Shown here piece by piece: positions 35,273 through 46,560 of a stretch of 57,516 nucleotides of DNA. Both the position numbers and the translations under genes were made by a program. This stretch comes from Gammaproteobacteria bacterium. GTDB taxonomy: Bacteria > Pseudomonadota > Gammaproteobacteria > Thiohalomonadales > Thiohalomonadaceae. The DNA lies in contig JAPHTQ010000039.1 of assembly GCA_026196275.1 (NCBI GenBank), positions 1-57,516 of the forward strand, given 5' to 3'. The notes under the pieces were generated by a model that was not told the origin of the DNA, did no database searches, and saw nothing but the letters and a program-made list of their open reading frames with translations. How positions within the stretch are numbered: the first letter of the stretch is position 1; each line of letters starts with the position of its first letter.

Positions 35273-35408
35273 TTTCACCGCAGAGACGCAAAGGCGCAGA
35301 GAGGGTTAAAAACAGCAATGAATGTGTCACCGATAGCGTGTGGATATTCTGGCTGCCTGTGGGTACGTATGCGTTTTAACCTTTGCGCCTTTGCGCCTTT
35401 GCGGTTAA
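35273..35408. repeat. Paired inverted CGCAAAG-type repeat element, copy D
   Basis: The left arm (35273-35302) reads TTCACCGCAGAGACGCAAAG and on; the right arm (35373-35408) has three tandem CTTTGCGC-like units and includes the thiE stop codon itself. It fills the gap between hemL and thiE. Confidence 0.75.
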
Positions 35409-39153: not shown

Positions 39154-39916
39154 CGCGCTGGCCCTCCTGGCAGCTGCCGCACCAGCCGTTTTTATCCGCC
39201 TGCTGATGGTGGTGGTGGGTGTAGGGGGCGAGGCCGTCGAGCGGGCCGGCGATGATCTGTTCGCCGCCGCCCGGGCCTTGGGCACGTCGCTGTTCCGGGT
39301 GGCCGGTACAGCAGACCTGCTGATCGAGGCAGAAGACGCGATCGGTGCGTGCCATCACCAGGTGCAGGTCGTGCGAAACCATCAGGATGCCGCAGCGGCG
39401 TTCATCGCGCAGGCGCGAGATGAGGTCGTAGAGCTCGCTCTGGCCGGTGACATCGACCCCCTGGATCGGTTCGTCGAGAAACAGCAGTTGCGGCTCGCGC
39501 AACAGGGCGCGGGCCAGCAGTACCCGCTGGGTCTCGCCGCCGGAGAGGGTGGCCATCTGGTTTTCGATAAGATGGCCGGCACCCACCTCCTGCAGTGATT
39601 CAGCCAGACGCGCTTCGCCGCAGCGGTGGGTCAGGGTGAGAAAGCGGCGCACCGTTAGCGGCAGCACCGGATCGATGCTGAGCTTCTGCGGTACATAGCC
39701 GACACGGATGCCGGGACGGCTCTTCACCTGGCCGTGGTTGGGCTGTTGCAGCCCCAGCATGACCTTGACCAGGGTGGATTTGCCGGCGCCATTGGGGCCA
39801 ATAAGGGTGACGATCTCGCCCTGATGCACCGCCAGATCCACGTGATCCAGTACCATGCGCTGGCCGAAATGGACAGTAACCCCCTGCGCCTCTACCAGAG
39901 TGGTTGTTTTACTCAT
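39146..39916 (-). CDS. znuC: Zinc ABC transporter ATP-binding protein ZnuC
   Basis: This 256-residue ATPase drives zinc import. Walker A is GPNGAGKST near 39-47, the signature is LSGGETQR near 134-141 and Walker B is LLFLDEP near 153-159. The C-terminus is histidine-rich (YTHHHHQQ), as in many ZnuC proteins. The start at 39916 overlaps the end of zur by 8 bases. Confidence 0.95.
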   Translation of the reverse strand: MSKTTTLVEAQGVTVHFGQRMVLDHVDLAVHQGEIVTLIGPNGAGKSTLVKVMLGLQQPNHGQVKSRPGIRVGYVPQKLSIDPVLPLTVRRFLTLTHRCGEARLAESLQEVGAGHLIENQMATLSGGETQRVLLARALLREPQLLFLDEPIQGVDVTGQSELYDLISRLRDERRCGILMVSHDLHLVMARTDRVFCLDQQVCCTGHPEQRRAQGPGGGEQIIAGPLDGLAPYTHHHHQQADKNGWCGSCQEGQRDG

Positions 39917-40406
39917 GGCCGGCGCTCCGGCAGCCGGGGCAAAGCCCGCTGATCTCCACCGTCTGCCGCTCGATCTCAAAGCCTATGCGGCGGGCACTCT
40001 GAACCAGCTGTCGGTTGATCCCCTGATCGTCCACCTCCACCACCTGCTGGCAGCGGCTGCAGACCAGGAACTGGCCGTGGTGCGGGGTGCCCGGCGCGGT
40101 GCAGCCGGTGTAGGCATTGAGGCTCTCTATACGATGGATCAGACCCTGTTCCAGCAGAAACTCCAGTGCCCGGTAGACGGTCGGCGGGGCCGCCTTGAGC
40201 CCCTGTTCGTGCAGCCGTTCGAGTAGCGTATAGGCCCCTACCGGCTTGTGCTCCTGCCAGACCAGCTCAAGGATCTGCCGGCGCTGGGGCGTCAGTCGCC
40301 CGCCCTGTTCGGCACAGACGGCCCTGGCCTGGGCGAGTGCCGTGGCGATACAGGCGTGGTGATCGTGGCGTTCAGGCGGAAACGGCGATGAGATCGGCTT
40401 GCCCAT
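39909..40406 (-). CDS. zur: Zinc uptake regulator Zur (Fur family)
   Basis: This 165-residue winged-helix repressor has LTPQRRQILELVWQEHKPVGAY near 38-59, the recognition segment APPTVYRALEFLLE near 71-84, and structural zinc cysteines in CSRCQ and CPGC. With zinc bound it represses zinc import. Its gene heads the operon zur-znuC-znuB, and a Zur box lies at 40429, so it is likely autoregulated. The start at 40406 is preferred over 40448, which would run through the operator. Confidence 0.94.
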   Translation of the reverse strand: MGKPISSPFPPERHDHHACIATALAQARAVCAEQGGRLTPQRRQILELVWQEHKPVGAYTLLERLHEQGLKAAPPTVYRALEFLLEQGLIHRIESLNAYTGCTAPGTPHHGQFLVCSRCQQVVEVDDQGINRQLVQSARRIGFEIERQTVEISGLCPGCRSAGHE

Positions 40407-40428
40407 GTGCAGCTCCGGTGGAATAATC

Positions 40429-40441
40429 GTTATATTATAAC
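40429..40441. promoter_or_regulatory. Zur box between zur and znuA
   Basis: GTTATATTATAAC is a 13-base palindrome around a central T and matches the GTTATANTATAAC core of the gammaproteobacterial Zur consensus. It is placed to control both zur-znuC-znuB and znuA. Confidence 0.9.
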
Positions 40442-40462
40442 ATCTCATCTTCCGAGGTCACC

Positions 40463-41392
40463 ATGCTGCGTCATCTGTTTCTCCTGCTGGCACTATGCTG
40501 GAGCTTGCCAATGATGGCGGCTCCACGGGTAGTCGTCAGCATCGGCCCCGTGCATTCACTGGTGGCTGGGGTGATGGAGGGGGTGGCCGAGCCTCAGCTT
40601 CTGATCCCGGCCGGCGCCTCGCCCCACGCCTATGCACTGAAACCCTCGGATGCCCGGGCCCTGAGCGAGGCCGAACTGGTGGTCTGGATCGGCGAGGGGC
40701 TGGAGACGATGCTGGAGAAACCGCTGCACTCCCTGGCGGGCGAGGCACGGCTCCTGGAGCTGTTGCAGGTCGAGGGGATGCACCTGCTGCCTTCACGCAA
40801 GGGCGGCGTCTGGCATGAGCAGGAGCAGGGCCACCAAGCGGCGCATGCCGGGCATGGCCATGAGCTTGACGGGGTGGATACCCATCTGTGGCTGGCACCT
40901 GAGAATGCGCAACGTATTGTCGCTGCCGTGGCCGATGCGTTGTCGGCAATGGACGCTGCCAATGCAGAGCATTATCAGCGCAATGCCGCGACCCTGCGGC
41001 AGCGGATCGGTGCGCTGGCTGTGACCCTGGCACAGCGGCTGGAGCCGCTACAGGGACAGCCCTATATCGTCTTTCACGATGCCTACCACTACTTCGAGCA
41101 GGCTTTCGGTCTGCAACCAGCGGGCGCCATTGCAGTCAGCCCCGAGCAGCGTCCCGGTGCGCGGCGCCTGCTCGAGATCCGCCAGGCGATCCGCGACAGC
41201 GGCGCCCGCTGTGTCTTCAGCGAACCGCAGTTCAGGTCTGACATTGTTGAGGTGGTGCTGGAGGATACCGGTGCCCGCTACGGTGTACTCGACCCGTTGG
41301 GTGTCACTCTGACGCCGGGAAGGGGGCAGTGGTTTGCCCTGATGCAGGGACTGGCCGACAGCCTGGAGGCCTGCCTCACCGCAGGACGGTAG
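40463..41392 (+). CDS. znuA: Zinc ABC transporter substrate-binding protein ZnuA
   Basis: This 309-residue periplasmic protein has a signal peptide (MLRHLFLLLALCWSLPMMAA), then PVHSLVAGVMEG and the metal-ligand histidines (ASPHAYALKP, THLWLAPEN, FHDAYHYFE). A charged histidine-rich loop (HEQEQGHQAAHAGHGHE) near 119-135 is the usual zinc-scavenging loop of ZnuA. It is divergent from zur and shares the Zur box. Confidence 0.95.
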   Translation: MLRHLFLLLALCWSLPMMAAPRVVVSIGPVHSLVAGVMEGVAEPQLLIPAGASPHAYALKPSDARALSEAELVVWIGEGLETMLEKPLHSLAGEARLLELLQVEGMHLLPSRKGGVWHEQEQGHQAAHAGHGHELDGVDTHLWLAPENAQRIVAAVADALSAMDAANAEHYQRNAATLRQRIGALAVTLAQRLEPLQGQPYIVFHDAYHYFEQAFGLQPAGAIAVSPEQRPGARRLLEIRQAIRDSGARCVFSEPQFRSDIVEVVLEDTGARYGVLDPLGVTLTPGRGQWFALMQGLADSLEACLTAGR

Positions 41393-41466: not shown

Positions 41467-42150
41467 TCAGGCGAACAGGTTGCGGGTGCCGACGAGGATT
41501 AGCAGCAGCGCGCTGAACTGTTCGATGCGGGGCCGCCACTGTTGCAGCCGTTCGCGCAGGCGGCTGCCCAGGTAGGCGACGCCGACGCCGTAGAAGAGCG
41601 AGGGGATGGCAATGGCGCCGAGGCCGAAGCCGAGGCCGAGGGCCAGACCGTGCCAGGCGCTGCCCACTGCAGCGGCGGAGAAGAGCACGGTGCCCAGCGG
41701 CGCGCAGGGGCTGAGCGCCATTCCCGCCCCCATCAGGAATAGCCCGCCGGGCATCAGCGCACGCTGCGGCCCGGACCGGCCGCCCCGCGTAATCACCGCC
41801 TCGCCGCCGCCACTACGGCAGGCGTCCCCCCCTCGCCGGCGCAGCAACAGCGCCATACCTACCAGCACCGCCGCCGCCCCCAGCACCCAGCGCACCTCGC
41901 CGCCGCCGGCGGCCTTGCCCAGGTACTGCCCCGCCATCCCCGCGCCGGTGGCGAGCGTTGCATAGGCCGCCAGGCGCCCGAGAGAGAAGGGCAGCAGGGT
42001 GCGCCAGGCGTGGCGGATGCCGCCGTCGCTGGCGAGGAACACCGGCCCCAGATAGGGCAGGCAGGTGATGGTGCAGGCGCTCATGCCGAACACCAGCCCC
42101 AGGGCGATGGCCATCGGCAACGTCACCAGCGTCTGTTCGATCGGGATCAT
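41467..42150 (-). CDS. TauE/SafE- or CcdA-like membrane protein
   Basis: This 227-residue protein has about six membrane spans and a cysteine-containing first span (FGMSACTITCLPYLGPVF near 20-37), as in the sulfite-exporter TauE/SafE-annotated, CcdA-related proteins. Related proteins move reducing equivalents or small anions across the membrane. SPCAPLGTVLF near 150-160 is the repeat counterpart. The start at 42150 is chosen from MIPIEQTL. It precedes the double-cubane-type cluster in the genome but is downstream in transcription, separated by a repeat element. Confidence 0.78.
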   Translation of the reverse strand: MIPIEQTLVTLPMAIALGLVFGMSACTITCLPYLGPVFLASDGGIRHAWRTLLPFSLGRLAAYATLATGAGMAGQYLGKAAGGGEVRWVLGAAAVLVGMALLLRRRGGDACRSGGGEAVITRGGRSGPQRALMPGGLFLMGAGMALSPCAPLGTVLFSAAAVGSAWHGLALGLGFGLGAIAIPSLFYGVGVAYLGSRLRERLQQWRPRIEQFSALLLILVGTRNLFA

Positions 42151-42165
42151 AAAAAACCTCTCAAT

Positions 42166-42343
42166 GCAAAGGCGCAAAGACGCAAAGGGCGCAAAGGTTT
42201 TATTGCTAGATGAGTGGTATGCACGGTTTTCGGGGGTGTATTGTCGGTAAACGTTGTTTTCATCCAGCTCTGCCCATCAAGTAAATCTTGCGCCGGGGTT
42301 AGATGCCTGCCTGCATCCAAAACCCCTTTGCGTCTTTGCGCGA
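42166..42343. repeat. Paired inverted CGCAAAG-type repeat element, copy F
   Basis: The left arm (42166-42198) has four tandem units of the type GCAAAGGC/GCAAAGAC, and the right arm (42323-42343) reads CCCTTTGCGTCTTTGCGC. The stretch from 42151 to 42417 otherwise holds nothing recognisable. Confidence 0.75.
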
Positions 42344-42417: not shown

Positions 42418-43224
42418 TTACTCGCACTCGGCCAGGTACTCCTCGCGGGCGAGGATCGCGGCGCCGAAGGCGGTGGTGGTTTGTGGGTGTTCCGGTACCA
42501 CCAGTTCGCGCTGCAGTTCGTCCTCGATGGCGGCGACCAGTCCCTTGTTGAGCGCCGGGCCGCCGTCGAAGTAGACCCGGTCCTCGATGCCGACGCGCTT
42601 GGCCAGGCGCACGGTGCGCTTGGCGATAGAGTAGTGGATGCCGGCGACGATCTCGCCCTTGCCGTGGCTGTTGGCCAGCAGGCCGATGATCTCCGACTCG
42701 GCGAACACGGTGCAGGTGCTGTTGATCGAGAGCGGCGCGCTGGCGGCGTTGAAGTGGTAGTCGCCGAGCTCCTCCAGGTCGATCTCCAGGTTGCGCGCGG
42801 CCACGTCGAGGAAGCGCCCGGTGCCGGCGGCGCACTTGTCGTTCATGGCGAAGTTGGAGACGTTGCCGTCGGCGTCGATCTGGATCGCCTTGGAGTCCTG
42901 GCCGCCAATGTTGATGATGGTGCGCACCCCGCCGAAGGCCTTGCCGGTCTCGTGGGCGCCGATGGCGTTGGCGGTGATCTCGCTAATCGAGTCATCCGCC
43001 TCCTTGAACAGCTTGCGCCCGTAGCCGGTGGCGATGAGGTATTTCACATCATCCGGTTGCAGGCTCAGTTCGGCGAGCAGCCGTGCCAGCGCCTCCTTGG
43101 CGTTCTTGTGGAACAGGCTGCCGGAGGCGGTGATGTGCACCCCGGCAAGCTTGCCGTCTTCGTCCACCAGGGCGGCCTTGATCGCCGTAGAGCCGATATC
43201 GATGCCAGCAAAAACATTACTCAT
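42418..43224 (-). CDS. HgdC/BadF-type ATPase activator (reductase of a double-cubane protein)
   Basis: This 268-residue protein belongs to the ASKHA-fold ATPase activators of 2-hydroxyacyl-CoA dehydratases and double-cubane proteins. GIDIGSTAIKAALV near 7-20 and NIGGQDSKAI near 105-114 bind ATP. C131 (NDKCAAGTGRFLD) and C171 (STCTVFAESE) are the two ligands by which the homodimer holds a single [4Fe-4S] cluster. Known activators use ATP hydrolysis to push an electron to very low potential. It lies directly downstream of the HgdB-like gene, its presumed partner. Confidence 0.92.
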   Translation of the reverse strand: MSNVFAGIDIGSTAIKAALVDEDGKLAGVHITASGSLFHKNAKEALARLLAELSLQPDDVKYLIATGYGRKLFKEADDSISEITANAIGAHETGKAFGGVRTIINIGGQDSKAIQIDADGNVSNFAMNDKCAAGTGRFLDVAARNLEIDLEELGDYHFNAASAPLSINSTCTVFAESEIIGLLANSHGKGEIVAGIHYSIAKRTVRLAKRVGIEDRVYFDGGPALNKGLVAAIEDELQRELVVPEHPQTTTAFGAAILAREEYLAECE

Positions 43225-43261
43225 TTATCTTTTCTCTTGGATGTGTTGATTTGGTAACTCT

Positions 43262-43308
43262 CGCCAGGACGCAAAGGAAAAACCGGGCATCTCTTTGCGC
43301 CTTGGCGG
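43262..43308. repeat. Short paired inverted CGCAAAG-type element, copy G
   Basis: CGCCAGGACGCAAAGG faces CTTTGCGCCTTGGCGG across about 14 bases, so this copy can fold into one hairpin. It lies between the HgdB-like stop codon and the HgdC-like start codon. Confidence 0.65.
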
Positions 43309-43330
43309 CTTTCTGAGAGACCTCTTTTTC

Positions 43331-44611
43331 TCATGCGCGCTTCCGTTTGCGTGCCTTGATCGATTCGAGGAAGGCCTCGATGCGGGTGGAGAGCTGGCCC
43401 ATGTCGTCGGGGCTGTAGTCGGTCTCGATGTAGAGCATCGGGATGCGCCTGGCGTTGAGCGCCTCGGCGATGCTGCGCTGCTCCATCTCGTAGACCTGGC
43501 AGCCGGAGAAGGCCTGGTAGACCACGCCGTCGGCGTTGAAGCTGGCGGCCAGCTCCAGCAGCCGGCGCTGGCGGTCGTCGTTGCGGGTGAAGATGGGGCA
43601 GGTGCAGGGCTTGAGGTAGCGATCGGCCAGGCCGTCCACCATGTCGTTCACCCGCCACTCGTCCACCGCGGTCATGTCGTAGAGCATGCGGTTGGCCGAG
43701 CAGGTCTCGTCGGCCACCACCACACCGCCCGCCTCCTCGATGAGCAGCGGCAGCTTGAGGTTGGGGAAGATCGGCGGTGAGCCGGTGAAGAGGATGCGCG
43801 GCGCCTTGCGCTGGGCGGCCTGGAAACCGTTTTTCTGTCGCTCGGCCAGCTCGGCGTTGAGCTTCTCTACCGCCTCGGTCCAGCGCTCGATGTCATCGAA
43901 GAAGAAGGCGTTGGTCACCAGGAAGGCGTCCTTGCCGAGGAACAGTGCCGGGCTGCTTTTGCGCAGGTTATGCAGGGTGCGGAAGGCCGCCTGGGCGTGG
44001 GCGGTGCGGGCCATCGCCGCCTTGAGGCCCTTGCGCGTCAGCTTGTTGCCGGTGAGCCGGCCGAGGCGCAGGGCGAACTGGCGCACCGAGCGCTGCCAGT
44101 AGAGACGCGACTCCTCGCTCTCCTTGGCTGGGGGCAGTTCCAGGTCGTGGACGCTGTAGCCCATCCCCTCGATCATCGCGCCGGCCTTCTTCTTCTGGTC
44201 ACAGGTGGTGGGGTTGACCACCAGGTCGAGTTTGCCCACCCGCGGGATGGCGTTTTCAGAGCCGAGCATGCCGAGGGTCGCCTTGACCAGCGAGCAGGAT
44301 TTGGCGGGCATGAAGTCTGCGCCGATTTGATCGTAGTGGTAGGAGCCGTTGCACAGCCGCACCGGGGTGGCGCCCATGGCGTAGATCAGCTCCTCCGGGG
44401 CGTGGATGCAGGTGGTGCCGACCAGGGTCCCCTGGCGTGGCAGCGCCTCGCCCTGGCAGTAGACGCGGCGAAACAGTTCGTAGAAGTACGCCATCGCCTG
44501 CGGGTTGTCGTCGAAGCGGTCTGTGATGTGGTCGAGCACGTTCTCCGCCTCGCGCGCCTGGCGGCTCAGGTTGTAGGCCGGCCCGGCGCTAGTCGTGGTC
44601 ATGTCGCTCAC
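43331..44611 (-). CDS. HgdB-family double-cubane-type iron-sulfur protein
   Basis: This 426-residue protein is a two-domain COG1775/HgdB homologue (HAPEELIYAMGATPVRLCNG near 70-89 is the family signature). It is a single subunit. Candidate cluster ligands fall three in each domain: C68, C106, C137 in the first, and C304, C336 or C338, and C371 in the second. Six such cysteines in one chain match the double-cubane [Fe8S9] proteins better than true dehydratases, which split ligands over two subunits. Double-cubane proteins reduce small molecules such as acetylene or hydrazine in vitro; their natural substrates are unknown. The start overlaps the end of the NapH-like gene by 23 bases. Confidence 0.85.
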   Translation of the reverse strand: MSDMTTTSAGPAYNLSRQAREAENVLDHITDRFDDNPQAMAYFYELFRRVYCQGEALPRQGTLVGTTCIHAPEELIYAMGATPVRLCNGSYHYDQIGADFMPAKSCSLVKATLGMLGSENAIPRVGKLDLVVNPTTCDQKKKAGAMIEGMGYSVHDLELPPAKESEESRLYWQRSVRQFALRLGRLTGNKLTRKGLKAAMARTAHAQAAFRTLHNLRKSSPALFLGKDAFLVTNAFFFDDIERWTEAVEKLNAELAERQKNGFQAAQRKAPRILFTGSPPIFPNLKLPLLIEEAGGVVVADETCSANRMLYDMTAVDEWRVNDMVDGLADRYLKPCTCPIFTRNDDRQRRLLELAASFNADGVVYQAFSGCQVYEMEQRSIAEALNARRIPMLYIETDYSPDDMGQLSTRIEAFLESIKARKRKRA

Positions 44612-45578
44612 TGGTGTTTCCTTTGTGCATGCGTTTGATGAAGCCCTGCTCGGTGGACTCGTAGATGGGGATGCCGGCGAAGGTGGCCTTGAGCGCGCCG
44701 TCCTCAGGGCAGGCGGCGACGCACTTGAGGCAGAGGATGCAGTCGTCCTGCATGATGCGCGGCTCGTTCACCTCGTCGGCGATCTCCTTGATCTCCATAT
44801 CGCACACCCGGTAACAGTCGCCGCAGCGGGTGCATTTGTCGCCATCCTTCTTCAGCTTGAGCAGGGCGGGTTTGGAGAAGAGGTAGTGCAGCGCGCTCAT
44901 CGGGCAGAAGAAGCAGAAGAAGCGCTTCTTGATGAAGGCGCCGGTGAAGAACAGCCCGGTGACGAGCATCCCCAGCGCGGTCATCACCATCGCCGTTTTG
45001 CTGGAGAAGTCGATGGTCAGCTGCGAGGCGTCGCCGGTGAACAGCGGGATCACCATGCGCCCGGGGCAGATATCGCAGAACGGCGTGCCCATGGTGTGGG
45101 GCAGCAGACCGCCGCCGATGGCCAGCGGGATCAGGATGGTCAGCGCCAGTAGCACGTACTTGATCGGGGTCAGGGCACGAAACTGTGCCTGGCTGTAGCG
45201 CGCGTAGCGGATGCCGAGACGGGTGCGTAGCGCGGTGATCCAGTCCTGGATGGTGCCGAGCGGGCAGGCGTAGCCACACCACGCCTTGTTGAGTACGAAG
45301 AACCAGAGGGCGAACCAGAGGAAGGCGGTGAGCACACCGATGCCAGCGTAACCGAACAGCGCTTTCCAGTTCATCGCCATCAGGTGCTGCAGAGGCAGTA
45401 GGAAACAGACCCCGCCGCGCCCCTCCTGGTTGAAGCCGCAGGCGAAGGTCGGCAGGTTGTTGCCGAGGTTGATGGCGAAGTAGCCGCCATAGACCAGCAG
45501 CGCAAAAAAGCCGAGCTGCAGCCAGAAGCGCAGGCGGCGCAGGTTTAGGTTGTTGACGGCGGTGCGTAGCCTACTCAT
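44589..45578 (-). CDS. NapH-like membrane polyferredoxin
   Basis: This 329-residue protein has about five membrane spans and NapH/NosR-type cysteine motifs at their ends: CGYACP at 101-106, CDICP at 168-172 and CFFCP at 222-226. Two cytoplasmic [4Fe-4S] sites follow, CTRCGDCYRVC at 249-259 and CILCLKCVAACP at 280-291. NapH relatives pass electrons from quinol or across the membrane to iron-sulfur partners. It overlaps genes on both sides, so it is translationally coupled to the double-cubane-type protein, to which it could deliver electrons. Confidence 0.9.
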   Translation of the reverse strand: MSRLRTAVNNLNLRRLRFWLQLGFFALLVYGGYFAINLGNNLPTFACGFNQEGRGGVCFLLPLQHLMAMNWKALFGYAGIGVLTAFLWFALWFFVLNKAWCGYACPLGTIQDWITALRTRLGIRYARYSQAQFRALTPIKYVLLALTILIPLAIGGGLLPHTMGTPFCDICPGRMVIPLFTGDASQLTIDFSSKTAMVMTALGMLVTGLFFTGAFIKKRFFCFFCPMSALHYLFSKPALLKLKKDGDKCTRCGDCYRVCDMEIKEIADEVNEPRIMQDDCILCLKCVAACPEDGALKATFAGIPIYESTEQGFIKRMHKGNTSERHDHD

Positions 45579-46560
45579 CGAATTGCACCTCACGGTAGGG
45601 GCGGTGGCGGCGGCGTCGGTAGAGATAGATGCCGAGGCCAGTGGCCAGCAGGGCGAAGAGGCCGAAGGATATGCCGTAGGCGTAGGACTCGTAGTCGCGC
45701 GGCGACGGATAGTAGTTGCCGGCCAGGCTGCTGCGGTAGACGGTTTGCCGGTACGGGGTGCCTTCCACTTCGCCCGCCTCGGGTACGGTATGGGCGGCGA
45801 TCACCAGGTAGGGCTGGGCCTTGCGCTTTTCGAATTCGTGCCACGGCGGGTAGTAGTCGCGGATCAGGGTGTAGCTGACCCGCCCCTCGCTGTCGCTGAG
45901 TGCCTGGCGGCTCCAGCCCTGGGCCGTGGTGAAGGTGACTGCGGCGCCGGGCAGCGGCTCGCCGTTGCGCAGTACCTGGAAGGAGACGGTGTCGCCGTGG
46001 CTGAGCAGGGAGTGGAAGTTCTCCTTGGGCAGGCGCTCGCGCACGAGCTCCAGCGGGATAGCGGGGTTGTGGCGCGGCGGCATCTTCGATTGTACGTCGT
46101 CATGTCCCTCGCGGCAGCTGTGCTTGAGTACCTCGGCCTTGGCGATGTATATCAGTCGCCGCCCCTCGTCCACGTTGAGCCGCTGGTGGGTCAGGTAGGC
46201 GTTGTAGAAACCCTCTTCGGGCATGGGGAACTCGACGTTGTAGAGGCCGTGAACGGCGTCGCGCTGGACCGCCTGCTCGTGGGGCTGCCCGCTAGTGTCG
46301 AGTAGCAACAGCGGAGAGTGCGAGGGGAGCTGCTGCACGTAGCCCGCCTGCTGCGGGTTATCCTCATGGCGCAGCCAGAGGTTCTTGTAGTAGACGCCGC
46401 GGCGCTTCACCACCGTGCCGCCGTGGGCGTGTTCGCCGCCACCGTGCCCGGCGTGGGGTGGGACTTCGGAGAGCCACAAGACTTCGCTGGCAATGGCATT
46501 CCCCCCCGCCACGGCGAGTGTCAGCATCACAAGCAAGAATGCGGACGCATGTTTGATCAT
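45571..46560 (-). CDS. Periplasmic His-rich DUF4198-like protein with C-terminal anchor
   Basis: This 329-residue protein has a signal peptide (1-25), a histidine-rich segment HAGHGGGEHAHGG near 36-48, beta-rich domains with an Ig/carboxypeptidase-regulatory look (GEPLPGAAVTFTT and DSEGRVSYTLIRD), and a C-terminal span (GLFALLATGLGIYLY) followed by RRRRHR on the cytoplasmic side. It resembles DUF4198 or NikM-type proteins that bind metal, but identity is uncertain. Its end overlaps the NapH-like start by 8 bases. It is the first gene of the cluster. Confidence 0.75.
   Translation of the reverse strand: MIKHASAFLLVMLTLAVAGGNAIASEVLWLSEVPPHAGHGGGEHAHGGTVVKRRGVYYKNLWLRHEDNPQQAGYVQQLPSHSPLLLLDTSGQPHEQAVQRDAVHGLYNVEFPMPEEGFYNAYLTHQRLNVDEGRRLIYIAKAEVLKHSCREGHDDVQSKMPPRHNPAIPLELVRERLPKENFHSLLSHGDTVSFQVLRNGEPLPGAAVTFTTAQGWSRQALSDSEGRVSYTLIRDYYPPWHEFEKRKAQPYLVIAAHTVPEAGEVEGTPYRQTVYRSSLAGNYYPSPRDYESYAYGISFGLFALLATGLGIYLYRRRRHRPYREVQFDE

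Follow-up and report, generated by a model that had tools for sequence, protein, structure and literature searches.

The subject of this analysis is a cluster of leftward genes in a stretch of 57,516 nucleotides, here called the window, from a gammaproteobacterium of the family Thiohalomonadaceae (contig JAPHTQ010000039.1), in which a double-cubane [Fe8S9]-type protein and its ATPase are encoded together with a transmembrane polyferredoxin and a periplasmic protein. The genes of the cluster are as follows.

45571..46560, minus strand: DUF4198-fold protein of the periplasm, anchored by its C-terminus, the loop at residues 36-46 being His-rich (AF2 model, fold match)

44589..45578, minus strand: NapH-like transmembrane polyferredoxin with four transmembrane helices (profile match, Cys conservation, topology)

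43331..44611, minus strand: HgdB-like double-cubane [Fe8S9]-type protein (NF040772, PDB 7yyl/6eno, Cys conservation)

42418..43224, minus strand: HgdC-type ATPase activator with [4Fe-4S] ligands C131 and C171 (TIGR00241, PDB matches)

41467..42177, minus strand: DsbD_2/CcdA-like membrane protein, the fifth gene of the cluster (PF13386, E 5.5e-21)

An earlier note on this DNA had described a four-gene operon of packed leftward open reading frames, overlapping by 8 and 23 bases. This arrangement is confirmed and all four genes are real, the hgdB-hgdC pair itself being separated by a spacer of 106 bases, but the fifth gene, with conserved Cys C35, C39, C120 and C158 in its DsbD_2 product, was missed, as was the TonB-linked context in which the cluster occurs elsewhere. 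The periplasmic gene has an alternative in-frame start upstream, which extends it to 46608, and the residue numbers of the NapH-like protein are counted from the GTG at 45593.

Judged by its sequence, the HgdB-like protein is a genuine member of the double-cubane family. It scores 359.4 bits against the family model NF040772 (cut-off 350), and its closest solved structures are 7yyl and 6eno (E about 1e-68), both of the double-cubane protein from Carboxydothermus hydrogenoformans. The six Cys residues that had been placed as ligand candidates, three per domain, are borne out by conservation: C68, C106 and C137 in one domain and C304, C338 and C371 in the other are at least 97% conserved, and all six align with Cys in 7yyl/6eno and in the classical members of the family, i.e., those of the kind of E. 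coli YjiM. The choice previously left between 336 and 338 is settled as C338, the one of the two that is invariant; C336 is Ser in one homologue (L079) and has no Cys opposite it in classical members. C87, which had not been listed, is a further conserved Cys. The ATPase scores 237 bits against TIGR00241 (cut-off 125) and matches 4eht, 1hux and 7yyl_E in the PDB, while C131 and C171, rightly named as features of an HgdC-type activator, are invariant in 67 sequences. In a genome-wide search a second subunit of the HgdA/BzdO type was not found, and besides the HgdB-like protein the genome encodes no HGD-D protein, from which it follows that a heterodimeric dehydratase is not encoded. A CoA-ester dehydratase or benzoyl-CoA reductase, which lacks its second subunit here and whose equivalog cut-offs are missed widely, is therefore rejected, as the earlier note had argued. 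In vitro, the nitrogenase-like double-cubane cluster proteins act as reductases of acetylene, azide and hydrazine; what they do physiologically was still called unclear in 2025, and the double cubane of BzdN, from benzoyl-CoA reductase, is read as a cofactor for electron transfer or storage (PMC11971306).

When 84,980 species genomes are scanned, 64 loci are found with relatives of the HgdB-like protein that are 82 to 51% identical to it over most of its length. They belong to about five phyla (Beta- and Gammaproteobacteria, Campylobacterota, Desulfobulbales, Bacteroidota and one Acidobacteriota bin), with records from Gallionella, Sideroxydans, Thiobacillus, Sulfurisoma, Dechloromonas, Thiohalomonas, Sulfurimonas, Sulfurovum, Sulfuricurvum, Hydrogenimonas, Arcobacteraceae, Desulfurivibrio, Desulfobulbaceae, Bacteroidetes and Bryobacterales, the majority of them metagenome bins; a plasmid of Sulfurovum mangrovi bears the same cluster. 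Counted over scan loci and genome-search loci where the flanking DNA suffices, and slightly inflated because a few loci are near-duplicates, the double-cubane gene is accompanied by an HgdC-type ATPase gene in 65 of 65 cases, by one for a NapH-like protein in 59 of 59 and by that of the periplasmic protein in 54 of 54. Of 31 loci, 30 have a DsbD_2/CcdA-like gene and 29 a gene for a TonB-dependent receptor; ExbB, ExbD and TonB are each encoded in 19. Rare co-occurrence of the four genes had been named beforehand as what would speak against the model of the earlier note; in these loci the four always occur together, and the suggested tie of the double-cubane protein to a polyferredoxin in the membrane and a metal-binding protein in the periplasm is obligate.

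The classical double-cubane loci inspected lack these partners. NapH-like, DUF4198-like and DsbD_2 genes are absent near E. coli yjiML, as judged by annotation, and, as judged by search, near three campylobacterial loci of the classical kind (32% identity). In 299 Campylobacterales genomes the window clade is present in 29 and the classical kind in three, and no double-cubane protein falls in the identity gap between 33% and 56%. A search at 1e-30 of a sample of 369 genomes of the class gives five matches, each adjoined by a NapH-like gene. A phage collection yields distant, unannotated matches only. Two of the classical campylobacterial pairs (L141, L143) adjoin genes whose products start with CRNxACPxPVL, possibly sulfur-carrier (TusA/YedF-like) proteins, and lie near oxidoreductase genes.

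The NapH-like protein is predicted from hydropathy and charge to have four helices with both termini in the cytoplasm. On the cytoplasmic face it has C106, C110, C227 and C230, and on the same side a C-terminal domain with eight Cys in two ferredoxin motifs, while the predicted topology puts C52, C63, H70, C173 and C176 in two periplasmic loops. All 16 Cys and H70 are invariant in types A and B of the operon, type A being the double-cubane-free version described below. The five periplasmic residues have no counterpart in E. coli NapH, and the NapH equivalog cut-off is missed (78.8 bits against 234). A chain of clusters would cross the membrane and end at a putative metal or cluster site in the periplasm.

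For the periplasmic protein the AF2 model is confident (pLDDT 86). Its fold matches that of Zcp, which has been solved with zinc, cobalt or copper, over 205 residues (VIA Z 18.8), and that of the Ni-bound IsDUF4198 of Ideonella sakaiensis over 189 residues (VIA Z 15.6), the next unrelated match reaching a Z of 6.1 only; the Pfam gathering score for DUF4198 is missed (27.8 bits against 34, E 3e-6). The description of the protein as His-rich holds in part: no single His is conserved family-wide in 61 sequences, but the same loop is enriched in His, Met and Cys, at least two of which occur in it in 57 of 60 homologues. This loop follows a conserved W-L-S/D motif and is His-rich in some lineages, Met-rich in Nitrosomonadales (MGGMGGM) and provided with a Cys pair in Sulfuricurvum; His, Met and Cys together make up 14.1% of it, against 4.4% of the remainder of the protein (p 2e-11), the loop being higher in 59 of 60 homologues. 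Segments rich in Met, together with others rich in His, are characteristic of proteins that handle copper. In many Campylobacterota an N-terminal Fer4_5 polyferredoxin is fused to the periplasmic protein, and some of the fusions add a NosL domain; single proteins with Fer4_5, NosL and DUF4198-like parts are encoded at L051:4228-6984 and L053:4243-6996. DUF4198 proteins typically have an N-terminal His and are linked with TonB receptors, and the member tested, IsDUF4198, binds Ni best and is not stabilised by Cu(II) (PMC12537917); they are also linked with PepSY transmembrane reductases (PMC8238504). Near the expected mature start of the window protein, with the cleavage site judged by eye, there is no His. 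That the periplasmic side takes part, as the earlier note had supposed, is supported.

A search that starts from a sister genome's TonB receptor locates one receptor with 61% identity in the genome of the window, where it heads a second operon.

Contig C77:146-7146 of the window's genome (G000; locus L107): type A operon with genes for the receptor, a His-rich DUF4198-like protein, a NapH-like protein, DsbD_2, ExbB, ExbD, TonB and PCuAC

This operon has no gene for a double-cubane protein or its ATPase. Its products are paralogues of those in the window, with identities of 32% for the NapH-like protein (E 8e-57), 44% for DsbD_2 (E 1e-50) and 27% for the DUF4198-like protein (E 2e-9), and its last gene encodes the copper chaperone PCuAC (PF04314, E 3e-35). 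Type A is found, at an identity of at least 48%, in 13 of the 369 class genomes, three of which also have the double-cubane version; in two further genomes the search returned only the NapH-like gene of the double-cubane version itself (about 34%). PCuAC ends two of the 13 type A loci inspected, and in one genome (G053, L130:6124-14926) type A directly precedes, in the same orientation, nosZ with NosD and further nos genes. The operon on C77, a candidate for copper acquisition, probably deserves a study of its own. Since a version without the double cubane exists in the same genome, and since type A occurs next to nos genes and PCuAC, the core of the module would be a TonB-linked transmembrane reductase to which the double-cubane pair has been added. 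In addition, because type A keeps the NapH-like protein without the double cubane and the ATPase, another electron acceptor than the ATPase must exist for this type of protein.

In the window, zur and a znuA-type gene (39909-41392) adjoin the DsbD_2 gene divergently, and this neighbourhood is not kept in other loci; a functional link to the adjacent HemJ, TlpA, ClC, zur or znuA was rejected, as none of them is kept elsewhere. Repeats of the GCGCAAAGGCGCAAAG type are dispersed in the window, with 16 matches against 0.9 expected, among them sites at 42164-42341, 43259-43308, 23000, 35286-35404 and 36867. They occur on both sides of hgdC, at junctions where the genes in other genomes for the most part overlap or abut.

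We read the genes as an ATP-boosted, TonB-linked module for the reduction or acquisition of a periplasmic metal, probably copper, and give this reading a chance somewhat short of even. To outline it, consider a metal or chelate that the TonB-dependent receptor, here encoded on C77, would import into the periplasm, where the membrane-anchored DUF4198 protein would hold it by its fold and its His/Met-rich loop. The NapH-like protein would pass electrons across the membrane to its periplasmic Cys4-His site, which would reduce the metal (if copper, from Cu(II) to Cu(I)) or strip its ligand, while the CcdA-like protein might maintain reduced thiols or hand on the metal. From the cytoplasm, the HgdC-type ATPase and the double-cubane protein would supply the ferredoxin domain of the NapH-like protein with electrons of low potential, the double cubane serving as an electron store, as in BzdN. 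The freed metal, most likely copper, would go to cuproenzymes of the periplasm, for example N2O reductase or cbb3 oxidase. In this scheme the gene identities, co-occurrence, DUF4198 fold, predicted topology, site conservation, double-cubane-free paralogue and links to PCuAC, NosL and nosZ have been computed; the direction of the electrons, the identity of the metal and the reaction are what we infer. As type A works without the double cubane, the NapH-like protein most plausibly sends electrons toward the periplasm, the double cubane being an optional, stronger donor, and as the double cubane of BzdN is read as an electron store, a role in storage or donation is not without precedent. A more far-reaching form of the proposal, which we consider somewhat unlikely, is that of an ATP-powered transmembrane electron pump, in which ATP hydrolysis by the ATPase charges the double cubane and electrons of very low potential pass through the polyferredoxin, with its periplasmic Cys4-His site, to open a TonB-imported metal complex that quinol-linked reductases cannot reduce.

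The receptor and the DUF4198 fold point to a metal or metal chelate, and the neighbouring PCuAC, NosL and nosZ point to copper. In a Bacteroidota bin a nos-like cluster, with genes for a NosG/H-like protein, an ABC ATPase, NosL and an ABC permease, comes after the double-cubane version; the window itself has no copper-specific partner gene. Among Campylobacterales, nosZ is present in 18 of 29 genomes that carry the window clade against 100 of 270 others (p 0.015, kinship ignored), and in the family of the window in 8 of 9 carriers against 2 of 7 (p 0.035, kinship likewise ignored), an enrichment that weakly supports copper. A function specific to NosZ was rejected, as many carriers lack nosZ. 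When ccoN was searched for in nosZ-less carriers, 18 of 20 gave a strong match (17 above the curated cut-off), one a weak match and one none; cbb3 oxidase, found in nearly all of them, is too common to serve as a discriminating partner. A link to nitrogen fixation was also rejected, as nifH occurs in 10 of 29 carriers against 55 of 270 (p 0.10), with one group of related genomes dominating. Either nosZ or nifH is present in 26 of the 29 campylobacterial carriers, those without nosZ being mostly nifH-positive.

Several results weigh against the copper reductase proposed here. The gene nosZ is missing in 11 of the 29 campylobacterial carriers, and most carriers among the Nitrosomonadales, Sulfuricurvum and Desulfurivibrio do not have it either. 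No copper-receptor model is matched specifically by the TonB receptor; its best matches are to generic models for siderophore and hemin receptors and for PqqU, and nearly all of them score below cut-off. Boxes for Fur, Zur and NikR are not above shuffled controls and none is conserved, copper operators not having been searched, and for FNR there are only four sites with one mismatch, all from one genus, two being the same site and thus not independent. AF2 models the NapH-like protein with moderate confidence (pLDDT 76), and no significant fold match is found for it in the PDB. As the tested DUF4198 protein prefers Ni and is not stabilised by Cu(II), the metal may not be copper. Finally, reduction of Cu(II) does not need a very low potential, so that an ATP-driven double cubane looks excessive, and the need for ATP-driven electrons is the weakest step of the explanation. 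It is possible that the metal is held by a very strong ligand, or that the ligand itself is attacked reductively.

From the same evidence other explanations can be built. The architecture may be kept but serve nickel, cobalt, zinc or an iron chelate, in which case the double cubane would act reductively on the complex of the metal or on the ligand in it. The Ni preference of IsDUF4198 (PMC12537917), the binding of Zn, Co and Cu by Zcp, the equal likeness of the receptor to siderophore, hemin and pyrroloquinoline quinone receptors, and the adjoining zur and znuA speak for this, but the Met-rich loops and the adjacency of PCuAC, NosL and nosZ indicate copper, and zur and znuA are not kept as neighbours elsewhere; we regard such a metal as fairly unlikely. 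The import and reductive activation of an organic or organometallic cofactor (corrinoid, tetrapyrrole or quinone-type), analogous to the MCR activation complex, would account for a TonB receptor, weakly similar to PqqU and BtuB, beside an ATP-driven low-potential reductase. It is very improbable: upstream of 8 loci there is no riboswitch at Rfam gathering scores, neither a cofactor-processing enzyme nor an ABC transporter of the inner membrane is shared by most loci, and the DUF4198 fold is metal-binding.

The model of the earlier note runs the electrons the other way, from the membrane protein to the ATPase. Spelled out as a rival, it would have the NapH-like protein oxidise quinol or a periplasmic donor, and the double-cubane protein act in the cytoplasm as the terminal reductase, on a substrate that is small or metal-bound. 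The order of the genes agrees with this, the ferredoxin domain is cytoplasmic, and known double-cubane proteins reduce small molecules in vitro (PMC11971306), but the paralogous operon, which retains the NapH-like, DUF4198, DsbD_2 and TonB parts, lacks both the double-cubane protein and the ATPase, and no importer of a cytoplasmic substrate is encoded, unless DsbD_2 is one. Furthermore, the potential of quinol is far too oxidising to reduce an HgdC-type cluster, so that a flow from the NapH-like protein to the ATPase is unsupported, and we find the model distinctly unlikely. The TonB receptor, which the earlier note did not see, favours uptake of a metal or chelate over reduction of a free small molecule.

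The locus is real, conserved and unusually informative on an orphan enzyme family, the mechanism being inferred. As the clade never lacks the membrane electron wire and the periplasmic metal-binding protein, and rarely the TonB receptor, the role of the double cubane is genetically testable under metal limitation. The electron pump, if true, would be the first physiological role for single-chain double-cubane proteins and, to our knowledge, the first case in which ATP drives the export of electrons to the periplasm. If the metal is copper, the module bears on the copper supply of sulfur- and iron-oxidising bacteria in sulfidic or iron-rich, low-oxygen habitats and, through the supply for N2O reductase and cbb3 oxidase, on N2O emissions. 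In the open-access literature searched, neither the combination of genes in the operon nor its link to copper is described, which is not proof of absence.

Several known systems resemble the module in part. Like the double-cubane cluster protein of C. hydrogenoformans (6eno, 7yyl) and YjiM/YjiL of E. coli, it pairs a single-chain HgdB-type protein with an HgdC-type ATPase, and the six positions of the cluster-ligand Cys are common to both. Classical pairs, about 32% identical to the window protein, stand alone or beside unrelated genes where inspected, whereas members of the window clade, at least 51% identical, are always accompanied by the transmembrane polyferredoxin and the DUF4198-fold protein, and mostly by a TonB receptor. 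The NapH-like protein shares with the quinol dehydrogenase ferredoxin NapH the four transmembrane helices, the cytoplasmic Cys pairs and the two C-terminal 4Fe-4S motifs, but differs from E. coli NapH by its extra periplasmic Cys4-His site. With the accessory proteins of the Nos system (NosR/NosH, NosL, NosA) some members share a Fer4_5 polyferredoxin, a NosL domain and a TonB receptor together, the receptor not being of the NosA/OprC type in the searches made; unlike that system, the module occurs in many genomes without nosZ and adds the double-cubane protein, the ATPase, DsbD_2 and the DUF4198-fold protein. A further comparison is with the clusters of PepSY membrane proteins, flavinylated DUF2271 proteins and secreted DUF4198 proteins described by Meheust et al. 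2021, which likewise join a transmembrane electron-transfer protein to a secreted DUF4198 protein and to which systems thought to reduce metal outside the cytosol are related (PMC8238504). PepSY, DUF2271 and ApbE are not seen among the conserved genes of the module, which is analogous to these clusters, but with an Fe-S, NapH-like protein as its membrane wire and, in the double-cubane version, probably with ATP as the driving force.

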